From: Streptomyces sp. NBC_01264
GTDB lineage: Bacteria > Actinomycetota > Actinomycetes > Streptomycetales > Streptomycetaceae
Assembly: GCF_026340675.1 (NCBI RefSeq)
Contig: NZ_JAPEOX010000001.1
Span: 3,286,001-3,350,000, forward strand
Length of the DNA: 64,000 nucleotides
Direction of reading: 5' to 3'
The notes under the pieces are model-generated. The model was not told the origin of the DNA. It did no database searches and was given only the letters and a program-made list of their open reading frames with translations. Positions 31,768-55,480 of the stretch are shown here, piece after piece. The position numbers were made by a program, and so were the translations under genes. Within the stretch, counting starts at the first letter, position 1; each line of letters starts with the position of its first letter.

Positions 31768-32516
31768 ACGACGTGACGCTGCCGAGCACCGAGCAGGCGC
31801 GAACTCTCACTGACCGTATCAAGATCGCAGTCGAGGGAACCTGGCAGCTCATCCGCGAGGCCTACACCAGCCGTACCTGGGCCGTCCTCGGCTACGACAC
31901 CTGGGACGCCTACTGCACCGCCGAGTTCGGCGAGAGCCGACTCCGACTGCCTCGGGAGGAGCGGCAAGAGGTCGTTGCGTCACTGCGGGAAAGCGGGATG
32001 AGCTACCCGGCTATTGCGGCTGCCACAGGGTCGTCTGTGGGCACAGTCTTCGCGGCCGCCCAGGCTTTCAATTCTGAAAGCCTCCCTGCCCGCACTCAAG
32101 GTGCCGATGGCAAGAGCTACGCGGCAACGCGGAGCGCGGCCGAGCCAGACCTCCTCGCCGGCGATGACTGGCAGCAGCCTGCGGGCCCGGGCTTCGAAGC
32201 CGCCGTAACCCCTCCGCGGGTCAAACGGCGGCCTCTCCCGGAGGCGTTCACCGACGCTGGCCGCGACCTCACCCGGGCCGCCGAAAAGCTCGCCCGGCTC
32301 GCCGAAGACGACCGGTTCGCCAAGAACCGGGAGACCACCCACCACCAGGTACCCGAACTCCTCGGCGCCCTAGAGCACACCGTCCGCCTCGTCGCCGCCA
32401 TGAACCTTCCGGCCGCCGACGCAAGCGCAGAGGCCCGCCGCTGGTGGGCGGCGAGCCTCCACAACCTCAGCGACGCCCTCGCCAGCATCGCCAACTCCCT
32501 CGAGAAGGAGATCTAA
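31764..32516 (+). CDS. HTH prophage protein (possible replication/partition accessory)
   Basis: 250 residues from GTG 31764. Residues ~20-70 (IKIAVEGTWQLIREAYTSRTWAVLGYDTWDAYCTAEFG) and the HTH LRESGMSYPAIAAATGSSVGTVFAAAQA resemble actinophage proteins with a Streptomyces partition-type HTH. The C-terminus is helical (LTRAAEKLARLAEDDRFAKNRE ... LSDALASIANSLEKEI). It is directly followed by a ParB-like gene with no gap. Confidence 0.65.
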   Translation: MNDVTLPSTEQARTLTDRIKIAVEGTWQLIREAYTSRTWAVLGYDTWDAYCTAEFGESRLRLPREERQEVVASLRESGMSYPAIAAATGSSVGTVFAAAQAFNSESLPARTQGADGKSYAATRSAAEPDLLAGDDWQQPAGPGFEAAVTPPRVKRRPLPEAFTDAGRDLTRAAEKLARLAEDDRFAKNRETTHHQVPELLGALEHTVRLVAAMNLPAADASAEARRWWAASLHNLSDALASIANSLEKEI

Positions 32517-33418: not shown

Positions 33419-34468
33419 ATGCCCTGGGTCCGACTGGACGACCGCTTCCCCTCGCACCGCAAGGTCGCGCTGCTGTCCGATCGCGCCTTCCGGCTGCACG
33501 TCACCGCCCTCTGCTGGAGCTCCGAGAACCTCACCGAAGGCCTCATCCGGGACAAGGAGCTTCCGGTCGTCGCCCGCATCCGCGGCCTGAAGACGGTCGC
33601 GAAGGAACTCGAGGACGCCAAGCTCTGGGACCGAACCGAGGACGGCTGGGTCATTCACGACTACCTCGTCTACCAGTTCAGCCGCGAGCAGGTTCTGGCC
33701 GAGCGAGAAGGCAACGCCGCCCGGCAGAAGGCTTGGCGGGAGCGGAAGAAGGCGGAGAAGGAAGCCAAGGCCGCGGCCGAGAAGGCAGCCGCAGACGCCG
33801 ACCATAACGGCGTTACGCAGCAGGGCGAAACGCACGACGGCGACACGAACGAAGCACGACAGCGACACGACAGCGACACGAACTCGCTTCGAAGTGGTGC
33901 TGAAAATCATCGATCGTCGCAGGTCAGCGAGATTCGTAACGGTGTTAGTAACGGCGCCCCATACCCATACCCGTCCCGTCCTTCTGTTCCTTCTCCTACG
34001 GAGAAGGAACAGAAGAGAGAAGGACAGACGGATCAGCCGGCCCGCATCGGCGACCGTCCCCGGATCCCCACCAACTGCGAACCCCTCGTCGCTGCGCTCC
34101 AACAAGCGCAGCTGTACGTCGGCTGGGATCTCGACTCCACCGAGTGGTTCCTCATCGAGGCACTGATCAAGCGGTGCGGAATCGCGGCCCTCGTCGTCTC
34201 CGCCAGGGGCAGCTGGCAAGGAGCCCGTACCCAGCCCCGCAAGGGCAACTACTTCATCCCCGCCTGGCGGAAGCTCGCCAGCACTGAGCAGGAGGCCGAC
34301 TACACGGCCCTGCCTGCCGCTGTAGGCGCCGAAGTCGTCCAGTACGGACCCCGCGCCCACCAGGCCGCTCCCAAGCCCTCAACGACCGATCAGCGGGTGC
34401 AGCAAGCCCTCGAGGTTGGCCGCCGCCTCCAAGCCCTCCACGACGCCAAGACCCAGGAGAACCAGTGA
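33419..34468 (+). CDS. Phage replication initiation protein (lambda O/DnaT-like)
   Basis: 349 residues from ATG 33419. An N-terminal winged-helix domain (WVRLDDRFPSHRKVALLSDRAFRLHVTALCWSSENLTEGLIRDKELPVV ... WVIHDYLVYQF) is typical of phage replisome organisers. A charged coiled region follows (RQKAWRERKKAEKEAKAAAEKAA), then a disordered, less GC-rich stretch (residues ~125-205), and a C-terminal domain (LVAALQQAQLYVGWDLDSTEWFLIEALIKRCGIAALV) that may contact the host helicase. The disordered part is encoded by 11-bp DNA iterons and an AT-rich block, as in lambda O where the origin lies inside the gene. Confidence 0.75.
   Translation: MPWVRLDDRFPSHRKVALLSDRAFRLHVTALCWSSENLTEGLIRDKELPVVARIRGLKTVAKELEDAKLWDRTEDGWVIHDYLVYQFSREQVLAEREGNAARQKAWRERKKAEKEAKAAAEKAAADADHNGVTQQGETHDGDTNEARQRHDSDTNSLRSGAENHRSSQVSEIRNGVSNGAPYPYPSRPSVPSPTEKEQKREGQTDQPARIGDRPRIPTNCEPLVAALQQAQLYVGWDLDSTEWFLIEALIKRCGIAALVVSARGSWQGARTQPRKGNYFIPAWRKLASTEQEADYTALPAAVGAEVVQYGPRAHQAAPKPSTTDQRVQQALEVGRRLQALHDAKTQENQ
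33833..34015 (+). other. Putative replication origin inside the replication gene
   Basis: Five tandem 11-bp units run from 33833 to 33887: CACGACGGCGA, CACGAACGAAG, CACGACAGCGA, CACGACAGCGA, CACGAACTCGC. Eleven is not a multiple of three, so the periodicity is at DNA level and not from protein repeats. They are followed by a relatively AT-rich block (about 33898-33955) and by a 16-bp perfect inverted repeat CTTCTGTTCCTTCTCC (33981-33996) pairing with 34000-34015 across TAC. Confidence 0.65.
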
Positions 34469-42559: not shown

Positions 42560-42871
42560 GTGCACGCCTACCTGATCACCGCGCAGCCGTCGCGCTGGCG
42601 TCGAGCCGGCCGATGGGTCCGGGTGTGCACGACCCGTCTCCTCATCGGCGCCGTCCTCCTCCTCCTGGGGCTGTTGGTCCTCGTGATCCGCAGCCTCCGC
42701 CCCATCGTCAACGTCCTCGCCACATGGGCAGTCCGCACCGAGCTGGAGATCAGCATCCGGACCGGACTGCCCTCCATCGGCGCCAGCCTCGGCGCCCACC
42801 TGACCGAAGAGTTCGTCCGCGAGTTCCACAAGGGCTGGGACCGCACCACCAAGGAAGGACAGCCGTCATGA
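42560..42871 (+). CDS. Small membrane protein
   Basis: 103 residues from GTG 42560 (CGGAGG upstream). A basic start (RWRRAGRWVRVCTTR) leads to one long TM helix (LLIGAVLLLLGLLVLVI) and an amphipathic tail (IRTGLPSIGASLGAHLTEEFVREFHKGWD). ATGA-coupled to the DUF2637-like gene. It is similar in size and topology to Spd (spread) proteins of Streptomyces plasmids. Confidence 0.55.
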   Translation: MHAYLITAQPSRWRRAGRWVRVCTTRLLIGAVLLLLGLLVLVIRSLRPIVNVLATWAVRTELEISIRTGLPSIGASLGAHLTEEFVREFHKGWDRTTKEGQPS

Positions 42872-44139
42872 CCGCCTCCCTCGACCACGTCAACGGCCGG
42901 ACCGCCGACCCCTTCGAGCCGCGGTTCGACCCGATCGCGCTGGCCGAGGCCGAAGCGATCCGCACGAAGGCCGAAGCCGCAGCAGAGGCGGCGCGGATCG
43001 AAGCCGAAGCCGCCGCGCAGGTCGAGATCATCAGGGCCACGGAGGAAGCCGAGAAGCAGCGTCTCGCCAACGTGCGTGCCGCCCGCCGCGATGAAGCCGA
43101 CGAGGCCGCGCACCGGGTCCGCATGGCGGAGCTGGAGCGGAAGCGCGCCGAGACCCAGCGCGCGGCCGAAGCCGAGGCGAAGGCCGCGGAAGAGGCCGAC
43201 ATCACGGCAGAGGTGGAGCAGGAAGCCCGGGACAGCTCGGCCCAATCCTGGAAGCGGGCCGCTATCGGGTTCGCCATCATCTGCGGCCTGGTCGCCCTGC
43301 CGGTGCAGATGTCCGCGTTCTACACCGACGAGCGCCCGTACCTCGGCGGCGTCCCGATCGTTCTCGAAGCGGGAGCGTGGGTCGTCCTCAAGGGTGCGGC
43401 AGCTGCGGTGACCGACCACCGACCTCACTGGCACTACCGGCTGATCGCCTGGCTCATTGCAGCCGGCGCCGCAGCGGTGAACCTCGGCCACGGCCTCACC
43501 GCCTTCGACACCGTCACGGCCTTCGCCACGGCGGTCGCCTCTATCGCGGGCCCTGGCGTCTGGGATCTCCACGAGCACGGCCGGATCCGGCAGCGCGACG
43601 GCAAGCGGACGTTGCGGGAGCGCTGGGCGCAGCGCAGGGCAGAGACCAAGCAGGCCAAGCGCGAGGCGGACCGTGCGGCCGCTCAGGCAGCCGAAGCCGA
43701 AGCCGTAGCGGAGGCAGCCGCCGCAGCGGCCGAGCAGATCGCGAAGGACCGTGAGGACAACTTCCCCGAGGTCTGGACCCACGCCCTCAAGCTGGCCGCG
43801 GCACTTGGCGAGACGACCGTCACCGACACCATCTGGAACCGCGCACACAACGACATCGAAGGCACCGACCCGGGCGACAGCGTGGAGATCATCAGGGCCC
43901 GGCATGTGGCTGAGAAGCGCGTGCTTTCGGCCCGCTCCGAGGCCCCAGGCGAGAAGCCCGTCAAGGTCACAAAAGGCCAGCGTGCGATCCAAGTGAAGGC
44001 ACCCCGCGGGCCCTCCTCATACAGGCCCGTCCCCCCGCGCCGCACACGCAACGACACCCCGAAGTTCCACCCCGTCGCGCGGGCACTCGCAGCCGACGCC
44101 AAGCGCCAGTCCAACTCCGCCGCCGAGGAGCAGTCGTGA
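42868..44139 (+). CDS. DUF2637-like membrane protein with coiled coil (Spd-like)
   Basis: 423 residues from ATG 42868. Residues ~25-125 are an unbroken Ala/Glu/Arg coiled coil. About four TM segments follow (SWKRAAIGFAIICGLVALPVQM; VPIVLEAGAWVVLKGAA; YRLIAWLIAAGAAAVNLGHGLT; VTAFATAVASIAGPGVWDL), then a second coiled coil and a basic tail. The membrane part matches the DUF2637 type found next to TraB/FtsK genes in actinomycete integrative conjugative elements. It overlaps the FtsK-like gene (GTGA) and is therefore its likely membrane partner. Confidence 0.65.
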   Translation: MTASLDHVNGRTADPFEPRFDPIALAEAEAIRTKAEAAAEAARIEAEAAAQVEIIRATEEAEKQRLANVRAARRDEADEAAHRVRMAELERKRAETQRAAEAEAKAAEEADITAEVEQEARDSSAQSWKRAAIGFAIICGLVALPVQMSAFYTDERPYLGGVPIVLEAGAWVVLKGAAAAVTDHRPHWHYRLIAWLIAAGAAAVNLGHGLTAFDTVTAFATAVASIAGPGVWDLHEHGRIRQRDGKRTLRERWAQRRAETKQAKREADRAAAQAAEAEAVAEAAAAAAEQIAKDREDNFPEVWTHALKLAAALGETTVTDTIWNRAHNDIEGTDPGDSVEIIRARHVAEKRVLSARSEAPGEKPVKVTKGQRAIQVKAPRGPSSYRPVPPRRTRNDTPKFHPVARALAADAKRQSNSAAEEQS

Positions 44140-46211
44140 GCATCGACACCACCCCCATCGACTGGGACATGTCGAAGGTCATCCCCGGCCAGGTCGTTAC
44201 CCCGCAGCCGGCCGACGACGAGGACGACATTGCGCCCGGCGTCCTCGAAGTCCGCCCCTCCTACCCGCCCGTCCTTCGCAAGGCTGGCGGCGCCGCGATG
44301 GTCGCCGCAGCCGTCACCGGCAAGGCCATCGGGATCACCGCCCGCGCCACCTGGGTCGGGTCGGTCTGGTTCGGCGCCGGCTTCAAGGCGGGCTGCGTCC
44401 TCGGCTGGCGATACCTGCGGGCTCACGATCACCAAGAAGTCCTGGGCGGCATGAAGTCGGGGACCGACTGGACCAAGGTCAAGCAGACCCGACTCTCCCG
44501 CTGGAAGTTCCTCGGCTGGACCGCGCTGGCCACCCCGATCATCGACCTCCTCGGCTGGTGGGCCATCACCGCCTGGGCCGACATCCCCGCTGCCTCGTCC
44601 TGGCCCATCCTCCCCGGCCTCGAAGCGGCCGCTGCGGTCACCGCCATAGCCGCCTACGGGCGCTACCGACTCACAGCCCCGGACATCGCCCCCGGAAAGG
44701 TCATTGCCGACATGGACAACCCTGAGAACGAGGACCCGTACCCGATCGCCTGGGTGACCTCTGGCGGCCAGGCGGCCGACTGCCTGGCGCGCGCTCTGTA
44801 CGCCGAGGGCGCCGACTACCGCGACGTGAAGACGATCGCCCGCCACCCCTGGGGCTGGGAGATCGAGGTCGTCCTCAAGGGCAGCACGCCCGGCAAGGTG
44901 CAGGCAGCCGCCGACCAGATGGAATCCCACATGGGCCTCCCCGACGGCGGGTTCATGATCGAGCCCGACACCAGGGACAAGTCCCGCATCGTCGTCCGCC
45001 TCGTCCAGCAGAACCCGTTCGCCGACATGCCTAACCCGGCCATCCACGCACCGCGGTCCCTGTCCGTCCATGACGTCATCACCATGGGACGGGCCATGGA
45101 CGGCGGCCTGTTCGAGCTCACCCTCGACGGGTTCTGCGCCCTCGTCATCGGCGCCATGGGAGCAGGCAAGACCCTCGGCGCGCTCTACACGGTCAACGAG
45201 GCACTGACCGCCTGCCGTGATGCGGTCGTCTGGGACCTGGACCCGATCAAGGGTGGGCTGGACATCTTCGGCGACCTGATGGCCCGCCGCGCCCGGACCC
45301 CGGAAGAGTGCGAGGAAGCCCTGCAGGAGGCGCTGTCCTACGTCTCCGCCCGCCGCCACCTCATGGCCACGCTTCGCATGGGCGACCGCTGGCACGCCAG
45401 CGAGAAGCACCCCAACCTGTACATCAACATCGACGAGTTCATCCAGCTCAGCCCCCGCGGCAAGGACCTGGCCATCAAGATCCTGCGGACCGGACGCCAG
45501 TACGGCATCTACCTGATCATGGCCGGTCAGGAAGCGACCGCCGATGCCCTCGGCGACGCTGTCGCCCTGATCATCGCCTACCGGATCCTGATGGCCTGCC
45601 GCTTCGAAGACATCAAGATCGCCTTCGGTCCGGGAGCCGGAGCCCAGGGCTGGCGCCCCGACCGCATGAAGCCCGCCGTCGGCCCCGTCGCCAACGACGC
45701 AGGCCAAGCCATGATCATGGGCGGGCCCTTCAACCGAGCCATCCGATACCAGTTCAACAAGTACAGCCGCGACCAGGTCACCACCGCCGTCGCCGACCGT
45801 CTGACCGCCGGCATGCCCGCCATGGACACCGACACCCTCCTCAAGGCCGGCGCCAAGCTCTCCCGCACCGGACAGCGAGGAAGCCTCACCGGCCGGCTGG
45901 CCCAGTCCGGCCACCCCGACGCCGCGCTGATCCTTACCCTCCTGCAGGCATTCGACTCGGCGGGGCGCGACTACCTCGCCACCAACGAGACGCTCCTGCC
46001 CGCCCTGATCGCTGCCGGCATCGACGACGTGGACGCCACCGCCCTCGGCAACCGGCTCCGCAAGCACGCACCGGAAGCGAAGGCCGGCCGGGAGGACTGC
46101 GTCGAAGGCAAGCACCTCCGCGGCTGGCACCGAGCCCCCGTCGAGAAGGCCGCCGCGGGCCTCCTGGACCCGGCGAAGACCCGGCAGGACCCCGGCAGCA
46201 CCCCGGCGTAG
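44136..46211 (+). CDS. FtsK/SpoIIIE/TraB-like DNA translocase
   Basis: 691 residues from GTG 44136. Hydrophobic segments near residues 50-92 and 125-175 anchor it in the membrane. The motor domain has Walker A GAMGAGKT (339-346) and Walker B LYINIDEF (~427-434), followed by RTGRQYGIYLIMAGQEATADA, the typical FtsK sensor region. The C-terminal ~110 residues (GSLTGRLAQSGHPDAALILTLLQAFDS ... ALGNRLRKHAPEAK ... LRGWHRAPVEKAAAGLL) are of winged-helix type, the position where TraB/FtsK read 8-bp recognition repeats. The last codons and the stop lie inside an array of 11-bp repeats. It is predicted to pump double-stranded DNA through a membrane or septum. Confidence 0.78.
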   Translation: MSIDTTPIDWDMSKVIPGQVVTPQPADDEDDIAPGVLEVRPSYPPVLRKAGGAAMVAAAVTGKAIGITARATWVGSVWFGAGFKAGCVLGWRYLRAHDHQEVLGGMKSGTDWTKVKQTRLSRWKFLGWTALATPIIDLLGWWAITAWADIPAASSWPILPGLEAAAAVTAIAAYGRYRLTAPDIAPGKVIADMDNPENEDPYPIAWVTSGGQAADCLARALYAEGADYRDVKTIARHPWGWEIEVVLKGSTPGKVQAAADQMESHMGLPDGGFMIEPDTRDKSRIVVRLVQQNPFADMPNPAIHAPRSLSVHDVITMGRAMDGGLFELTLDGFCALVIGAMGAGKTLGALYTVNEALTACRDAVVWDLDPIKGGLDIFGDLMARRARTPEECEEALQEALSYVSARRHLMATLRMGDRWHASEKHPNLYINIDEFIQLSPRGKDLAIKILRTGRQYGIYLIMAGQEATADALGDAVALIIAYRILMACRFEDIKIAFGPGAGAQGWRPDRMKPAVGPVANDAGQAMIMGGPFNRAIRYQFNKYSRDQVTTAVADRLTAGMPAMDTDTLLKAGAKLSRTGQRGSLTGRLAQSGHPDAALILTLLQAFDSAGRDYLATNETLLPALIAAGIDDVDATALGNRLRKHAPEAKAGREDCVEGKHLRGWHRAPVEKAAAGLLDPAKTRQDPGSTPA

Positions 46212-46299
46212 ACCCGGCAGACACCCGGCGGGAGTTCAAGGCATCGGCGCAGGTCGCCGGGTGTCTGCCGGGCTCCCGCCGGGGTCACGCCGGGCCTGC
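46167..46299. repeat. Head-to-head array of 11-bp repeats (TraB-recognition-like)
   Basis: Six direct units, each exactly 11 bp, run 46167-46232: GACCCGGCGAA, GACCCGGCAGG, ACCCCGGCAGC, ACCCCGGCGTA, GACCCGGCAGA, CACCCGGCGGG. After a 23-bp spacer, four inverted units, also 11 bp, run 46256-46299: GCCGGGTGTCT, GCCGGGCTCCC, GCCGGGGTCAC, GCCGGGCCTGC. The direct array spans the translocase stop codon (46209-46211). Arms 46213-46230 and 46255-46272 form an 18-bp perfect hairpin, which could also terminate transcription. GACCCGGC matches 7 of 8 bases of the pSVH1 TraB repeat GACCCGGA. Confidence 0.75.
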
Positions 46300-46348
46300 G
46301 CCACCCCATTGATCCGCATTCGTACCGTTCCGACGAGGGGGAGCGATC

Positions 46349-46957
46349 ATGCCCACCAAGACCACCCCGAAGAAGCCCACCAACCGCAAGCGGACCACCG
46401 CACGCCGCAAGAAGCTCGGCGCCCGCAAGCCCATCGCCCGCACCCCCAAGGGCGGCAGCCTCGTCGACCGAGCGGGCGTCTGGATGGCCATTCGGCTCGC
46501 GACCCACGCCCAGGAGTACATGGCCACCACCGTGTCCCGGAAGGACGCCGCGATCCTCCGCATCACCCACGAAGGCTGCCCCACCTGCAACGGCAACGGG
46601 CAGATCTTCACCAAGGGCAAGGACGGATCCTTCACCGGATCCAAGCCCTGCCCCGCCAAGCCCAAGACGCAGAAGGTGTCCCGCCTCAAGGTCGCCATAG
46701 CCTCCCGGTTCGGCACCGACCGATCCACCGGACTCATCGGCTGGACCTGCCCCTGCGGCAGCAAAGAGAAGCCCCGCTACCGCGACGCCAAGCTCGCCAC
46801 GAAGGCGCTCCGCAACCACGAGACCAAGAAGCACGGCGGACAGTCCGTCGGCGGAGCCTGGTACGCGCAGGTGACCGAAGAGGCGGCGCTGCAGCCGTCG
46901 CAGCCGCTGCCCGCCGCACCCTCGCCGGTGCCGCAGATCGCGGAACAGGTCGTCTGA
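46349..46957 (+). CDS. Basic prophage protein with zinc-knuckle
   Basis: 202 residues from ATG 46349 (GAGGGGGAG upstream). The N-terminal 35 residues are strongly basic (KKPTNRKRTTARRKKLGARK), like a DNA-condensing tail. CPTCNGNGQIF (a DnaJ-type CxxCxGxG) and later CPCGSKEK ... HETKKH suggest zinc binding. It directly follows the repeat array, so it could bind it; inference. Confidence 0.55.
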   Translation: MPTKTTPKKPTNRKRTTARRKKLGARKPIARTPKGGSLVDRAGVWMAIRLATHAQEYMATTVSRKDAAILRITHEGCPTCNGNGQIFTKGKDGSFTGSKPCPAKPKTQKVSRLKVAIASRFGTDRSTGLIGWTCPCGSKEKPRYRDAKLATKALRNHETKKHGGQSVGGAWYAQVTEEAALQPSQPLPAAPSPVPQIAEQVV

Positions 46958-49207: not shown

Positions 49208-49693
49208 ATGGGAAGCGATCAGCCTCGAGACGGCAACCACAAGTTCGAGTACACGCTCAGCGCAGCCGAACGCGACGCCAAAGCCGCCGAGCTGCGGGCC
49301 CAAGGCTGGTCCTACCCAGCCATCGCCGAAGAGCTCGGCTACTACGACCGTAGCCACGTCTGGCGCCAACTCCAGCTCGCGAAGAAACGCGTCCTCAAGG
49401 AACCGGTCGAGAACCTGATCTCCGTCGAGATGCAGCAGCTCGACGCCCTATACGTCGCCGCCCTCGAGATCCTCGAGAAGGAACACGTCGCCATCTCCCA
49501 GGGCAAGGTCATGAAGGACGACGCCGGCAACCCCATCCTCGACGACGGCCCCCGCCTCGCCGCCATCCGCGAGATGCGCATGCTCCGCGAATCCTTCCGC
49601 AAGCTCTACGGCCTCGACGCCGAGAAGAAGGTCAACATCTCCGGCGGCGTCCGCTACGAGATCGTCGGCATCGACAGCACGGACCTCGCCTGA
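49208..49693 (+). CDS. terS: Terminase small subunit-like protein
   Basis: 161 residues from ATG 49208. HTH near the N-terminus (AELRAQGWSYPAIAEELGYYDRSHVWRQLQLAKKRV), a central helical/coiled part (VEMQQLDALYVAALEILEKEHVAI ... AAIREMRMLRESFRKLYGL), and a short C-terminal strand segment (VRYEIVGID). This is the expected layout for the packaging-site recognition subunit, ATGA coupled to the large subunit. Confidence 0.75.
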   Translation: MGSDQPRDGNHKFEYTLSAAERDAKAAELRAQGWSYPAIAEELGYYDRSHVWRQLQLAKKRVLKEPVENLISVEMQQLDALYVAALEILEKEHVAISQGKVMKDDAGNPILDDGPRLAAIREMRMLRESFRKLYGLDAEKKVNISGGVRYEIVGIDSTDLA

Positions 49694-51027
49694 TGACCGA
49701 AGCGGCGGTCGACACGGTCGTCCGGTACGAGCCGCGCGGTGCCGCCCGCACCCTGTTCCAGACCCGCAAGTCCGAGGTCGCCATGGCTGGCCCGGCAGGC
49801 ACCGGCAAATCGTTGGCCTGCCTCTTCCGCGTCCACCTTGCCGCGTTGAACAACCCTGGTATCCGCTGCCTGATCGTCCGCAAGACCGCCGTCAGCCTCG
49901 GCGCCACCACACTCGTGACGTTCGAGAAGAAGGTCGCCAAGCATGCCCTCGAGGCCGGCCTGCTCCGCTGGTTCGGCGGCTCGCCCCGCGAGGCGGCCTG
50001 CTACCGGTACGAGAACGGCAGCGTCATCGTCGTCGGCGGCATGGACAAGCCCGAGAAGGTGCTCTCCTCCGAGTACGACCTGGTGTTCGCCGATGAGGCG
50101 ACCGAGCTGACCGAGACGGACTGGGAGACGCTCGGCACCCGCCTCCGTAACGGCGTCCTTGCCTGGCAGCAGCAGATTGCCGCTTGCAACCCCGACCGGC
50201 CGACGCACTGGATCAAGCAGCGATCCGACCGCGGCAGCATGCTCATGCTCCACTCCCGCCACGTCGACAACCCTGCCTACATCAGCGCCGACGGAAGCCT
50301 CACCACCAAGGGTGCCGACTACATGGCCAAGCTCGACGCCCTCACCGGCGTCCGCCGGCTCCGATACCGAGACGGCATCTGGGCAGCAGCCGAAGGCCTC
50401 ATCTACGAAGGCTGGGACGACGCTCTCCACCTCATCGCCCCGTTCGAAATCCCCAAGGCTTGGATGCGCTGGCTCGTCATCGACTTCGGCTTCACCAACC
50501 CGTTCTGTGCCCAGTGGTGGGCTGAGGACCCAGACGGCCGGCTGTACCTGTACCGCGAGATCTACCGCACGAAGCGCCTCGTCGAAGACCACGCCCGCCA
50601 GATCCTGCGGCTGGTCACTGACGACGAAGGCAACTGGACTGAGCCCCACCCGCGGGCCGTGATCTGCGACCACGACGCCGAAGACCGGGCCACCCTCGAG
50701 AAGCATCTCGGCATGGGTACGTGGGCTGCGAAGAAGGGTGTCTCGGACGGGATCCAGGCGGCCCAGTCACGGTTCAAGGTCCAAGAGGACGGCAAGCCAC
50801 GCCTGTTCCTGGTGCAAGGTGCGCTGGTCGAGCGAGACCCGGACCTAGAGGCCGCCAAGAAGCCCACCTGCACCGAAGAGGAGATCACCGGCTACGTGTG
50901 GGGCGTGAAGCCCGGCGGCTCCCTGAAGGAAGAGCCGCTGAAAGAGAACGACCACGGCATGGATGCACTGCGGTACATGGTGGCCCAGCGAGACCTCGTT
51001 GGCCGGACTCGGGTGAGGTGGCTGTGA
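49693..51027 (+). CDS. terL: Terminase large subunit
   Basis: 444 residues. ATPase: Walker A GPAGTGKS (33-40), Walker B LVFADEATE, coupling segment ACNPDRPTHW. The nuclease domain has WLVIDFGFTNP, VICDHDAEDR and the closing HGMDALRYMV, the three acidic positions of the RNase-H-like fold. It packages DNA into the prohead and makes the terminal cut. Length and motifs are normal. Confidence 0.9.
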   Translation: MTEAAVDTVVRYEPRGAARTLFQTRKSEVAMAGPAGTGKSLACLFRVHLAALNNPGIRCLIVRKTAVSLGATTLVTFEKKVAKHALEAGLLRWFGGSPREAACYRYENGSVIVVGGMDKPEKVLSSEYDLVFADEATELTETDWETLGTRLRNGVLAWQQQIAACNPDRPTHWIKQRSDRGSMLMLHSRHVDNPAYISADGSLTTKGADYMAKLDALTGVRRLRYRDGIWAAAEGLIYEGWDDALHLIAPFEIPKAWMRWLVIDFGFTNPFCAQWWAEDPDGRLYLYREIYRTKRLVEDHARQILRLVTDDEGNWTEPHPRAVICDHDAEDRATLEKHLGMGTWAAKKGVSDGIQAAQSRFKVQEDGKPRLFLVQGALVERDPDLEAAKKPTCTEEEITGYVWGVKPGGSLKEEPLKENDHGMDALRYMVAQRDLVGRTRVRWL

Positions 51028-51203
51028 AGCGCATGACGGTCCTGGGGCTTCTGAATAAAGTCCTACCTTCCGCTTTGTCATTGACTGGAACTATGCTTGT
51101 GGCAATTGGCATAGGCATGGCCTATGAACCAGCGGGCTGGGTTGCCGCTGGGCTGGGGGCTTGGCTCCTCGAGTGGCGTCACTACGGCGGCCCCGAGGCG
51201 TAG
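51024..51203 (+). CDS. Small membrane protein between terminase and portal
   Basis: 59 residues from GTG 51024 (GTGA overlap). Two hydrophobic stretches (TVLGLLNKVLPSALSLTGTMLVAIGIG and PAGWVAAGLGAWLL) form a hairpin. The local base composition is slightly lower in GC than the neighbours. Function unknown. Confidence 0.55.
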   Translation: MKRMTVLGLLNKVLPSALSLTGTMLVAIGIGMAYEPAGWVAAGLGAWLLEWRHYGGPEA

Positions 51204-51218
51204 CGCTAGGAGGTGGCC

Positions 51219-52826
51219 ATGGGCAGGACAATGCTCGGCGCCATCCTCAACCGCGCCACCAGCCCTGCCGCCCCGCCCGTCCCCTTCTCGAGCCGCGCCC
51301 AGTCCTTCGCGTTCGGCCTCGGCGGCCGGCGTGACGCGCAGGCCCAGATGGCCGCGATGGGCTCCGTTGGGACGTTGTTCTCCATCGTCAACCGGACGTC
51401 CAACGCCACCTCCCAGGTGCGGTGGAAGCTCTGGCGCAAGGCGAAGTCCGGCCGAGACGAGGACCGCACTGAGGTCACCTCCCATGCGGCCCTCGACCTG
51501 TGGAACAAGCCCAACCCCTTCATGCCGCGGCAGGAGTTCGTCGAGGTCGTCCAGCAGCATGTGGACCTGACCGGCGAAGGCTGGTGGGTGATCGGCCGGC
51601 ACAAGGCCTCCCCGATACCGCTCGAGCTGTGGCCCGTCCGTCCCGACCGGATCACCCCGGTCCCGGACCCGGACACCTACCTCAGCGGGTACATGTACAC
51701 CGGCCCAGACGGGCAGCAGATAGCCCTCGAGCTGGACCAAGTCATCCAGCTCCGCATGCCCAACCCCCTCGACCCGTACCGCGGCATGGGCCCGGTCCAG
51801 TCGATCCTCACGGACCTCGACGCCACGAAGTACTCGGCCGAGTGGAACAAGAACTTCTTCCTCAACTCGGCCGAGCCCGGCGGGATCATTGAGGTGCCGC
51901 AGGCCCTGTCTGACCCGGACTTCGATCAGCTGCGTGACCGCTGGAACGAGCAGCATCGCGGCGTCGCCAACGCGCACAGGGTCGCCATCCTCGAGCACGG
52001 CAAGTGGATCGATCGGAAGTACACGCAGCGGGACATGCAGTTCGCCGAGCTGCGGTCCGTCTCCCGCGACGTGATCCGCGAGGCATTCGGCATCCCCGCC
52101 TTCGCGCTCGGCGAGGTCGCCGACGTCAACCGCGCCACCGCCGAAGCCTCGAGCACCTGGTTCGCAGAGATGCTGACCGTACCCCGCCTCGAACGCATCA
52201 AGGCCGCACTCAACCACGACCTGCTGCCGCTCTTCGGCACCACCGGCCAGGGCCTCGAGTTCGACTACGAGAGCCCCGTCGCCGAGGACCGCGAGCTAGC
52301 CGCCCGTGAGCTGACCGCGAAGGCTGCCGCCGCCCGCGAGCTCATCGAGGCTGGCGCCTACGGGCCCGAAGTCCTGGCAGCCCTCGACCTCCCGGAGATT
52401 GCCTTCGGCCAGCCGGGCGCCGACCAGGACCGTGAGCTGCTCATCAAGCTGGTCATCGGGGCGCCGCTGCTGTCGCCGCTCATCCTGCCGATGCTCGGCT
52501 TCGACCTGCCGGACACGCCGGCCACCGATCCGAAGGCGCCTGCCGGTCCAGCGAATGGTCTACCGCTGGGCCCTGAGATGGCCGCGCTGCTCAGCATCCC
52601 GGACGTGCAGGCCGCACAGAAGTGGGTGGCCGTCTCCGAGGACGACGACAACACCTGCGAACCCTGCCGTGACAACAACGGCCAGACGTACCGCAACCGG
52701 GCCGCAGCCTACCGGGACTACCCGGGCGGCGCCGGCTACATCCACTGCGAGGGCACGAAGTTCGGCAATGACTGCCGGTGCAAGGTCGTCAAGCGCGGCA
52801 AGGCCGACAAGGGGGACGACGAATGA
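51219..52826 (+). CDS. HK97-family portal protein with MuF-like C-terminal segment
   Basis: 535 residues from ATG 51219 with AGGAGG five bases upstream. The portal core includes GSVGTLFSIVNRTSNATSQVRWKLWRKA, LWNKPNPFMPRQEFVEVVQQHVDLTGEGWWVIGR, MPNPLDPYRGMGPVQSI and FGIPAFALGEVADVNRA. The last ~65 residues (VAVSEDDDNTCEPCRDNNGQTY ... YPGGAGYIHCEGTKFGNDCRCKVV) are the Cys-containing tail usually found in separate head-morphogenesis (MuF/gp7-like) proteins. The portal forms the dodecameric DNA channel. The extra tail appears to be fused in this phage. Confidence 0.85.
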   Translation: MGRTMLGAILNRATSPAAPPVPFSSRAQSFAFGLGGRRDAQAQMAAMGSVGTLFSIVNRTSNATSQVRWKLWRKAKSGRDEDRTEVTSHAALDLWNKPNPFMPRQEFVEVVQQHVDLTGEGWWVIGRHKASPIPLELWPVRPDRITPVPDPDTYLSGYMYTGPDGQQIALELDQVIQLRMPNPLDPYRGMGPVQSILTDLDATKYSAEWNKNFFLNSAEPGGIIEVPQALSDPDFDQLRDRWNEQHRGVANAHRVAILEHGKWIDRKYTQRDMQFAELRSVSRDVIREAFGIPAFALGEVADVNRATAEASSTWFAEMLTVPRLERIKAALNHDLLPLFGTTGQGLEFDYESPVAEDRELAARELTAKAAAARELIEAGAYGPEVLAALDLPEIAFGQPGADQDRELLIKLVIGAPLLSPLILPMLGFDLPDTPATDPKAPAGPANGLPLGPEMAALLSIPDVQAAQKWVAVSEDDDNTCEPCRDNNGQTYRNRAAAYRDYPGGAGYIHCEGTKFGNDCRCKVVKRGKADKGDDE

Positions 52827-53101
52827 GCAAGGACGGGCGCGGGTCAAGCTCGCTGCGCATCAGCGGGAGCGGCCTGCCAGGTGGCACCGAAGTGCAGCTC
52901 GATGGCCAGAACATCGAGCGGGCACTGAAGGGGGTGACCCTTCGGGTTGCGCACGACGTGGTTCCGACCGCTGTCCTCGACGTGATCCTTCACGACCTCT
53001 CGACCGAGGTCGAGAACCCGCGGCTTGTCGTTCCGGGCGAGACCCACAAGCTCCTCGTTTTGATGGGCTGGACGCCTCCTGAGGGGGATGGTGCATCATG
53101 A
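52823..53101 (+). CDS. Small hypothetical structural-module protein
   Basis: 92 residues, ATGA overlap at both ends. TEVQLDGQNIERALKGVTLRVAHDVVPTAVLDVILHDLSTEVENPRLVV looks like a small beta-sandwich. Proteins of this kind between portal and protease in actinophages have no assigned role. Confidence 0.55.
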   Translation: MSKDGRGSSSLRISGSGLPGGTEVQLDGQNIERALKGVTLRVAHDVVPTAVLDVILHDLSTEVENPRLVVPGETHKLLVLMGWTPPEGDGAS

Positions 53102-54129
53102 GTCGTAGCTCGTGGGGAGTTGCGGAGTCCGTCGTGCGCAGGCTGGGGCCTCTCCCGCGCCGTCTGTTCAACATGTCGACCCTGTCGCAGGGCGCCACTC
53201 GGGAGCTCCTTGCTGGCGCACTCCGTGGATCGGCAGAGGCTGACAACGTTGTCAGGCCTGGCGTGGACCTGAAGGCGTCGATCGCGGAGCGCCGAGACTG
53301 GTACCGCATCACCAACAACGCGGGCGCCGTGACCGTCGACATTTTCGACGAGATCGGCTTCTGGGGCGTCAACGCCGCCAACTTCCAGCGCGAGCTCGCC
53401 CAGGTCAACGCCAGCGAAATCACGGTGAACCTCAGCTCTCCCGGCGGGGAGATCTTCGAGGGCATCGCGATCTACAACGCGCTCCGCTCCCACCCCGCGA
53501 ACGTCACCATCCGGGTGTCCGCCCTCGCCGCATCCATCGCCTCCGTCATCGCGCAGGCAGGCGACCGGATCGTCATGCTGTCCGGCTCGCAGATGATGGT
53601 GCACGAAGGCGCCGGACTTTGTATGGGCAACGCAGCCGAGATGCAGCAGATGGCCGAGCTCCTCGACCGGCAGTCGGCCAACATTGCCGCGATCTATGCG
53701 GAGCGCGCCGGCGGCACGCCCGAGCAGTGGCGCGAACGCATGCTCGCCGAGACCTGGTTCAACGCCGACGAGGCTGTCGCCTCTGGACTAGCCGACGAGG
53801 TCGAGACGCTGCCCCGCAAGGGCGAGCAGGCCGATGAGCAGGTCACCGCCCAGTGGGACCTCAGCGTCTTCAACTACGCCGGCCGCGCCGCAGCGCCCGC
53901 CCCCCTCATCAACGCGACCCCCGCGGCTGAGCCGGTCACGGAGCCCAAGGTCGAGGCGCCACTCACCAACGAGGCCCCGGTCATCGAGGAGCCCACACCC
54001 GACCCTGAGCCCGAACCGGACTGCTGGGACTCCCTGACCGCACACCTCACCCAGCCTGCCCCCGATCCGTGGGCTGGCCTCGTCGCACACCTGACGTCGT
54101 CCAGCGCGGCGACGAGTACCCCCGCCTGA
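53098..54129 (+). CDS. ClpP-type head maturation protease
   Basis: 343 residues. After an N-terminal extension of ~50 residues the ClpP/crotonase fold follows: ITVNLSSPGGEIFEGIAIYNAL (oxyanion loop), IRVSALAASIASVIAQAGDRI (catalytic Ser in AASIAS), MMVHEGAGLCMGNAAEM (catalytic His), and WFNADEAVASGLADEV. The C-terminal ~90 residues are Pro/Glu-rich and may be a scaffold-like tail. It cuts capsid or scaffold during head assembly. Confidence 0.85.
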   Translation: MSRSSWGVAESVVRRLGPLPRRLFNMSTLSQGATRELLAGALRGSAEADNVVRPGVDLKASIAERRDWYRITNNAGAVTVDIFDEIGFWGVNAANFQRELAQVNASEITVNLSSPGGEIFEGIAIYNALRSHPANVTIRVSALAASIASVIAQAGDRIVMLSGSQMMVHEGAGLCMGNAAEMQQMAELLDRQSANIAAIYAERAGGTPEQWRERMLAETWFNADEAVASGLADEVETLPRKGEQADEQVTAQWDLSVFNYAGRAAAPAPLINATPAAEPVTEPKVEAPLTNEAPVIEEPTPDPEPEPDCWDSLTAHLTQPAPDPWAGLVAHLTSSSAATSTPA

Positions 54130-54139
54130 AGGAGGCACC

Positions 54140-55480
54140 ATGACCACCGTCGCGCGCACCGCGGACGAACTGACCGAGGCCCTCGGCGACACTGCCAGCC
54201 TCCGGGAGATCGTTAAGTCTCCCGAGACGCTTCAGAACTACATCCTCGAGTACGCGAAGAACCAGGCCCGCTCGGACGACTCGATCGCCCAGCAGGTCCG
54301 CGAGGAGACGCAGAAGGCGTTCGCCGAGCACCTCCGCACGGACCAGATCGAGAACATCAACCGGCTCAACCTGACCCCCGACGGTCAGCCCGCCGCCCGG
54401 TCCAAGCACTACAACGCGAAGGCCCCCGGGGCAAAGCTCGACAAGTCGTTCTCCGACTGGACCTCGTACATGACCGCGGTCTGGGATGGTGCGAAGACCC
54501 AGGAAGCGTTCACGGCGCGGGCCGAACTCGCGAAGATCCAGAACTCGTTCGGGTCGACCGTCCCCTCCGACGGCGGCTTCCTGATCCCGGAGACGCTCCG
54601 CTCCGAGCTTCTGCAGGTCTCCCTCGAGCAGTCGCTCGTCCGGTCCCGCGCCCGCGTCGTCCCGATGGAGACGCTGATGGTGCCGTACCCGATGGTCGAC
54701 ACCACATCGAACGCGTCGACGGTCCACGGCGGCATCCTCGGCTACTGGACCGAGGAGGGTGGCACCCTCACCGACTCCAGCCCCACGTTCGGCCGGATCG
54801 AGCTGCAGGCGAAGAAGCTGACGCTCTACTCGGAGATCCCGAACGAGCTGTTCCAGGACTCCCTCGCCACGCTTCAGCAGTTCATGTCGCAGTCGTACCC
54901 CGAGGCCCTGGCCTGGTTCGAGGACATCGCGTTCATAGAGGGCAACGGCGTCGGTCAGCCGACCGGCTTCCTCAACGCCGCTGCTGCGGTGTCTGTCGCG
55001 AAGGAGTCCGGGCAGAGCGCGGCCACCATCCTCTGGGAGAACATCGTCAAGGCGTACTCCCGGATGCTGCCCGCGTCGATCGGCCGGGCAGTGTGGGTCG
55101 CCCACATCGACACGTTCCCCGAGCTCGCCACGATGGCGCTCTCCGTGGGCACCGGCGGGTCCGCCGTCTGGGTCGGCAACGGTGACGGCGCCGGCGCCCC
55201 GCCGATGACGATCCTCGGCCGCCCAGTGATCTTCACCGAGAAGGTCAGCACCGTGGGCACGGTCGGCGACATCAACTTCGTCGACTTCGGCTACTACCTC
55301 ATCGGTGACCGCCAGGCCATGCAGATGAGCACGTCGACCGAGTACAAGTTCGGCAACGACAAGACCGCCATGCGCGTCATCGAGCGCGTCGACGGCACCC
55401 CCTGGATCAAGTCCGCGATCACCCCGCGCAAGGGCTCCAACACCCTGTCCCCGTTCGTCAAGGTCGCAACCCGCGCATGA
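54140..55480 (+). CDS. HK97-fold major capsid protein
   Basis: 446 residues from ATG 54140 (AAGGAGG upstream). Residues ~1-120 are helical and charged (a delta/scaffolding domain cut by the protease). The coat domain includes TVPSDGGFLIPETLRSELLQ, VVPMETLMVPYPMVDTTSN, GYWTEEGGTLTDSSPTFGRIELQAKKLTLYSEIPNELFQDS, and at the end GDINFVDFGYYLIGDRQAMQM and FGNDKTAMRVIERVDGTPWI. This is the HK97-type outline with A and P domains. Confidence 0.9.
   Translation: MTTVARTADELTEALGDTASLREIVKSPETLQNYILEYAKNQARSDDSIAQQVREETQKAFAEHLRTDQIENINRLNLTPDGQPAARSKHYNAKAPGAKLDKSFSDWTSYMTAVWDGAKTQEAFTARAELAKIQNSFGSTVPSDGGFLIPETLRSELLQVSLEQSLVRSRARVVPMETLMVPYPMVDTTSNASTVHGGILGYWTEEGGTLTDSSPTFGRIELQAKKLTLYSEIPNELFQDSLATLQQFMSQSYPEALAWFEDIAFIEGNGVGQPTGFLNAAAAVSVAKESGQSAATILWENIVKAYSRMLPASIGRAVWVAHIDTFPELATMALSVGTGGSAVWVGNGDGAGAPPMTILGRPVIFTEKVSTVGTVGDINFVDFGYYLIGDRQAMQMSTSTEYKFGNDKTAMRVIERVDGTPWIKSAITPRKGSNTLSPFVKVATRA

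Follow-up and report, generated by a model that had tools for sequence, protein, structure and literature searches.

Genes and repeats at the locus

The window, a stretch of 64,000 bp from the chromosome of Streptomyces sp. NBC_01264, contains an element that we identify as a prophage because the genes for a terminase large subunit, a portal, a head protease and a major head protein are all present (Table 1). The element also encodes an FtsK/TraB-like DNA translocase, with an array of short repeats at the end of its gene. The protein has an FtsK/SpoIIIE-like motor domain, as expected of a TraB-type double-stranded DNA translocase of Streptomyces, and near its N-terminus, where that type has membrane helices, two long helices (residues 65-103 and 109-148) are predicted with low confidence. 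Against NCBIfam NF041214, the equivalog of plasmid TraB, it scores 32.5 bits, the curated cut-off being 800, and it is a relative of that equivalog rather than a member. The C-terminal domain adopts a winged-helix topology in two structure models, with weak fold matches; FtsK gamma is absent among the fold matches listed, an absence that proves nothing. The gene following the array yielded no match to Pfam, PHROG or NCBIfam. A weak match to tyrosine integrases (E 2.7e-4, below the cut-off) at C1:3359763-3360290, 9.8 kb to the right of the window, could belong to the same prophage.

Table 1. Features of the prophage locus, in positions of the window
Feature	Position	Strand	Remarks
Replication initiation protein-like gene of the prophage	33419..34468	+	PHROG 2447, E 1.6e-33
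Upstream gene (longest ORF from 42613), overlapping the translocase start	42868..44139	+	relatives upstream of related translocases
FtsK/TraB-like DNA translocase gene, 691 aa	44136..46211	+	
C-terminal winged-helix-like domain, residues about 596-677, putative reader of the array	45921..46166	+	
Direct CCCGGC units, n=6	46167..46229	+	11-bp period; starts 46169, 46180, 46191, 46202, 46213, 46224
Stop codon TAG, within the array	46209..46211	+	
Perfect 18-bp inverted repeat	46213..46272	.	arms 46213-46230 / 46255-46272
Central GCAGGTC	46249..46255	+	common to arrays with different core words
Inverted units (GCCGGG on the + strand), n=4	46256..46294	-	11-bp period; starts 46256, 46267, 46278, 46289
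Downstream gene, function unassigned	46349..46957	+	relatives beside close translocases
Packaging and head genes: terminase large subunit, portal, head protease, major head protein	49693..55480	+	

The initial annotation had described six direct and four inverted 11-bp units, arranged head-to-head across the stop codon, together with an 18-bp inverted repeat, and all ten unit positions and the perfect inverted repeat were recovered here. Every step between neighbouring units in either arm is exactly 11 bp, and the period runs through the stop codon unchanged, from coding into non-coding DNA, direct units 1-3 lying in the coding part and unit 4 ending just 5' of the stop codon. The spaced pair CCCGGC-N5-CCCGGC occurs 10 times in the window, eight of them in the array, against a mean of 0.26 and a maximum of 2 in 100 dinucleotide shuffles. 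When further copies were sought with a caller of head-to-head arrays, this array was the sole call in the 64 kb. Given 26 sources (554 kb), each shuffled once with dinucleotides kept, the same caller made no call; in the unshuffled sources it made 31, of which a single one is in plain chromosome (L071:997-1073) and is taken as chance. The claim of six direct units holds for the window copy and not for its kin: unit 4, beside the stop codon, is GGCGGC in the eight compared relatives of the CCCGGC group, so that six perfect direct units are peculiar to the window copy.

Two simple explanations of the repeats were discarded. Coding constraint is disfavoured: although the first three units are translated, three does not divide the 11-bp period, and arrays of a similar kind occur in compound clusters away from translocase genes (see below). 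Scattered polar sites were ruled out by the distribution of the three-unit CCCGGC pattern in the whole genome (10.67 Mb), where 10 of its 15 matches fall in two arrays (six in the window array and four at C1:5488507-5488621) and five in GC-rich runs.

The recognition octamer of the pSVH1 TraB protein is reportedly GACCCGGA. The likeness to it that had been noticed earlier is partial: GACCCGGC, one base away, is found in three of the ten units (at 46167, 46178 and 46211), the exact octamer is absent from the array, and none of the ten units ends in GGA. In this respect, and in scoring far below the NF041214 cut-off, the window system is unlike that of pSVH1.

Just 3' of the array, at 46303-46335, inspection by eye showed a stretch of the form CCCNATTGATCC-N-ATATGTGAAG that is conserved in close relatives and is perhaps the promoter of the next gene.

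Arrays beside related translocases

With two candidates scored in each of 392 Streptomyces genomes, at least 38 of the genomes have a relative of the window translocase, and IMG/VR gave 11 loci. We compared 42 translocase 3' ends, including the window copy (L001) and the near-identical L031 and L032, with a chain caller that did not enforce the order of the arms, and 29 of them carried a direct and inverted array matched by none of 200 shuffles (5-mers). In three others (L023, L040 and L041) the array was reached by one or two of the 200 shuffles, and in the remaining ten, L003, L020, L022, L024-L027, L029, L030 and L059, none stood out. Most relatives thus have an array at the same place as the window copy, whose direct and inverted units lie around the end of the translocase gene as those of a clt locus do. 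By eye, some of the ten non-significant 3' ends look degenerate rather than empty.

The core word of the units varies by clade (CCCGGC, CCGTCT, CCGTCC, TGCTC, TGCTA and GTGAC, among others; a CCGGA-type array was found at L188). The CCCGGC-type pattern has eight loci in IMG/VR, all adjoining the window translocase family, which argues that the array is not tied to unrelated genes. A clt-like site inside a prophage, a surprising element of the initial annotation, was borne out by the phage nature of the element and by the recurrence of such sites in other viral contigs; the lytic-phage relative in Mildred21 has no array. At 30 loci of the NF041214 type, fetched from 199 genomes, three or more TGACAC words lie between -60 and +240 bp of the stop codon in 17 cases, and in 21 if TAACAC is counted too, the control being 7 of 2000 random 300-bp pieces of the window. 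The sequence GCAGGT stands at the same central place in the regions of 31 of the 42 relatives, compared with 6.5% of shuffles, and ACCTGC in 23.

The GCAGGTC centre is kept across differing core words and is often mirrored by GACCTGC further on. At the 3' end of the FtsK-like gene of plasmid pFP1 (L199), CTCTAC/GTAGAG repeats, a further core word that the array caller missed, were seen by eye together with GCAGGTC and GACCTGC.

Exchange of the C-terminal domain together with the array

In their C-termini the CCCGGC and CCGTCT groups have different putative recognition helices and wings, and two kinds of natural exchange connect such differences with the core word. The first involves the viral contigs L038 and L039, whose motors are nearly the same (bit ratio 0.98), yet the C-terminus of L039 is nearest to that of L005 and its array is of the CCGTCT type, like that of L005, and not of the CCCGGC type, like that of L038. 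Between 5940 and about 7740 the two contigs are 77-97% identical in blocks of 60 columns; identity then drops to 50-68% over about 420 bp that cover the C-terminal domain and the array, and is back at 80-100% over the next 600 bp. The second exchange is more distant: the motors of L007 and L008 are nearest (0.77-0.80) to that of L002, which has a CCGTCT array, and their C-termini resemble those of a distant TGCTC clade (mean bit ratio 0.36, versus 0.06 to the prophage family), their arrays being TGCTC as in that clade. Judged from these comparisons, the array and the C-terminal domain act as a single specificity module that can be exchanged; the core word differs from module to module, and arrays of this kind are tied to translocase genes. 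The match between repeat specificity and C-terminal domain comes from co-exchange only, with linkage as a caveat, since domain and array are adjacent and one recombination event can move both, interacting or not.

Compound clusters of arrays

A survey with the exact TGCTC-array pattern returned 45 loci, 19 in GTDB genomes and 26 in IMG/VR, at which translocases were searched for with 72 queries (E 1e-5). At 36 loci a translocase 3' end lies 65-142 bp from the array, and none of these has two arrays. Seven of the other nine have three to eight arrays of several core words in a row, some words occurring twice within one row, and no translocase was found in the fetched stretch of 2.3-8 kb; the last two (L116 and L121) have no array. 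The 45 loci represent 36 distinct 40-mers, the repeats all being among the translocase-adjacent loci, which leaves 27 versus 9. The hypergeometric value, 8e-7, was obtained from the raw survey counts of loci that are not independent.

One such compound cluster is in the genome of the window prophage itself, where about five arrays, of the TGACAC (read from direct repeats only), CCGTCT, TGCTC, CCGGA and CCCGGC types, follow one another within 1.1 kb (C1:5487540-5488640, equal to L070:9540-10640). Each of these five types is also found beside some translocase gene. The row is part of an element between 47-bp repeats at C1:5477263-5477309 (tRNA-Thr) and 5492050-5492096, 14.8 kb apart, with genes for an integrase, an HTH protein, a primase/helicase-like protein and a head protease; we read a 983-aa gene, which has no PHROG match, as that of a tape measure protein. 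BLAST with this row gave similar rows in four more genomes (G037, G055, G249 and G310). In G037, G249 and G310 the carrier lies between repeats of 43-45 bp at tRNA genes, the two copies standing 14.7-16.3 kb from each other, whereas in G055 it is a prophage, tentatively 36.6 kb long, that has genes for terminase, portal, protease and capsid. Flanking repeats at tRNA genes mark four of the carriers as integrated elements, and no transfer gene was found: 42 translocase proteins gave no tblastn match (E 1e-3) to L070-L072 and L104-L107. Three of the multi-array loci of the survey are these same rows (L114 is that of G037, L120 that of G249 and L148, by identical array spacing, that of G055), and the others are L109 (S. 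coffeae), L112 (S. coeruleorubidus, NZ_CP023694.1), L115 (a Streptosporangiaceae MAG) and L124 (a MAG labelled Inquilinus).

Virion genes are near several rows, encoding a tape measure protein in L105, L112 and L124 and a major head protein in L106, and L107 has none among the three proteins and one neighbour scanned. In those four loci it is a single such gene that stands beside the cluster, its 3' end facing it, as if these elements altered the virion of a helper phage.

The words GGCGA and CCCTGC of the compound clusters were predicted to occur beside some translocase too. Their exact patterns matched 31 and 1 viral loci, with a translocase at none of the 32 (tblastn), and in the 392 genomes GGCGA gave 44 matches in 40 genomes and CCCTGC one, with a translocase at none of the 31 inspected (30 of the 44 and the single CCCTGC). 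Most of the GGCGA matches are chance, because a reversed-pattern control also matches in many genomes.

A probable clt-like loading site in a prophage

Taking the arrays beside relatives together with a core word that follows the C-terminus, the initial proposal of a loading site for the adjacent translocase appears right in substance. We consider it probable (roughly 0.84) that the window array serves the TraB-like double-stranded DNA translocase, whose gene directly precedes it, as a clt-like site of recognition and loading. The C-terminal winged-helix-like domain would bind the CCCGGC units, which, being about one helical turn apart, would gather subunits on one face of the DNA and nucleate the hexamer, and the head-to-head layout would let motors load from either side of the GCAGGTC centre. 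Once the element is excised and replicating, the motor may then carry it across hyphal membranes in the way that TraB carries Streptomyces plasmids. Conjugative transfer of the phage is what we infer from this arrangement, a role in segregation or in spread inside the mycelium being equally open. With a putative conjugation-type loading site and its motor on board, such phages may spread from hypha to hypha without release as virions. The link between core word and C-terminal domain further suggests a readable code that would predict which translocase reads which site.

The gamma domain of FtsK reads polar KOPS sites. The window protein is built likewise, an FtsK motor followed by a winged-helix-like domain that is the expected reader of polar sites, but its sites are packed in one head-to-head array instead of being scattered. 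In pSVH1, according to PMC3583192 and PMC4170104, the clt/TRS consists of 8-bp repeats read by helix alpha3 of the TraB C-terminal winged-helix domain, and the C-terminal domain of the window translocase is similarly a putative reader of short repeats. The clt of pWTY27, as described in PMC3583192, comprises 16 bp within traA and 159 bp downstream and contains four TGACACC and further direct and inverted repeats with CCCGCCC among them; transfer depends on it, and TraA protects two of its regions. Like it, the window array straddles the 3' end of an FtsK-like gene and combines direct with inverted repeats; unlike it, the array has CCCGGC in place of TGACACC and CCCGCCC, keeps a strict 11-bp period, belongs to a prophage and not a plasmid, and has a predicted function whereas that of the plasmid site was tested (PMC3583192). 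PMC9513070 notes that no clt had been described for the AICE pSAM2. Our literature search, made mostly among openly accessible papers, returned no description of clt sites in prophages, of clt mimics or of clustered clt sites.

Three other readings of the array were weighed. It is improbable that a different protein binds it, whether a replication initiator at iterons, a ParB-type centromere protein or a repressor. The layout is indeed iteron-like, a replication initiator-like gene is present in the prophage, and GCAGGT, being common to arrays with different core words, must have a common reader; against such a protein, the core word goes with the translocase C-terminus in both kinds of natural exchange, and 36 of 45 pattern loci are within 142 bp of a translocase 3' end.

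We regard it as very improbable that the translocase gene ends in a transcription terminator or an mRNA hairpin, with the repeats as a by-product of its long stem. Nine CCCGGC-type arrays show pairing at 91% of cores and 43% of spacers, non-cognate spacers giving 34%; cores are kept and spacers are nearly free. A stem requires neither the 11-bp period nor a core word that follows the C-terminal domain, and would not explain several such arrays in a row in the compound clusters. The perfect 18-bp inverted repeat suits a hairpin, and the 180-base region folds better than its shuffles in all 11 arrays tested (z -1.8 to -5.4), but in none of the 11 do five T stand in succession within 180 bases of the stop codon, and between 46000 and 46500 there are no terminator-like sites against 0.4 expected in shuffles. 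The suggestion that the array doubles as a terminator is accordingly disfavoured, no stem-loop with a T-run being present in that interval even though the region folds well. Nor do these arrays look like a common terminator family, since those of the survey that lie away from a translocase all belong to compound clusters with more than one core word.

It is hardly credible that the array is a phage packaging site (pac or cos) which satellites mimic, for although the terminase gene lies 3.5 kb downstream of the array and several carriers of compound clusters are satellite-like, such repeats are also found beside plasmid translocase genes (pFP1, by eye; pWTY27, PMC3583192) and the core word follows the translocase C-terminus.

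Mimics or decoys

For the compound clusters we lean towards the view that satellite-like elements, and a prophage without a translocase, carry libraries of clt mimics in which each array is read by a different TraB family, so that the element may ride on any resident motor. Depending on what else the cell harbours, the helper would then, somewhat plausibly, be a conjugative plasmid, an integrative element or a prophage with traB, and the window array would, on balance, be the self-owned original of one such cassette; the 14.8-kb element of the same genome has a CCCGGC cassette of this type. A resident translocase with a like array was found in two of the five genomes that bear compound clusters, namely the window prophage (G000) and, in G249, the locus L010 with a GTGACA-type array similar to a cassette of L105; in G037, G055 and G310 no relative of the window translocase was among the two candidates scored per genome.

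The nearest known parallel to these rows appears to be the staphylococcal plasmids of the pWBG749 family, which carry mimics of the oriT of their helpers, some having two or three of different subtypes, as reported in PMC8136818. Like these mimics, the compound clusters occur in elements without transfer genes, with three to eight arrays each; they differ in being putative sites of double-strand TraB-type motors and not of a relaxase and T4SS, and in their carriers, which are satellite-like elements and a prophage instead of staphylococcal plasmids (PMC8136818).

The same clusters might instead be decoys that titrate incoming TraB motors and so block rivals, a possibility that we hold to be rather unlikely. 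Many sites for many motors with no translocase found would suit a sponge equally well, as would the two core words, GGCGA and CCCTGC, that have no known partner translocase. Mimicry is favoured by at least four of the carriers being compact elements with 43-47-bp repeats at tRNA genes, which would gain from being carried, and the oriT mimics are a precedent for mobilisation (PMC8136818). PMC9513070 asks whether elements use their own TraB pore or hijack that of another, and the compound clusters make this question directly testable, as the loci are known and the pairs of helper and site are predicted.

Two further observations concern the make-up of these elements. Positions 32051-32211 of the window and L070:10327-10487 share 161 bp at 99% identity, which suggests that the prophage and the satellite-like element exchanged DNA recently, and the shared stretch ends inside the CCCGGC cassette region of the latter. 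By eye, linkers such as ATACCGGGGCA recur between neighbouring arrays in L104, L105, L106 and L107 and are perhaps the borders of cassettes.
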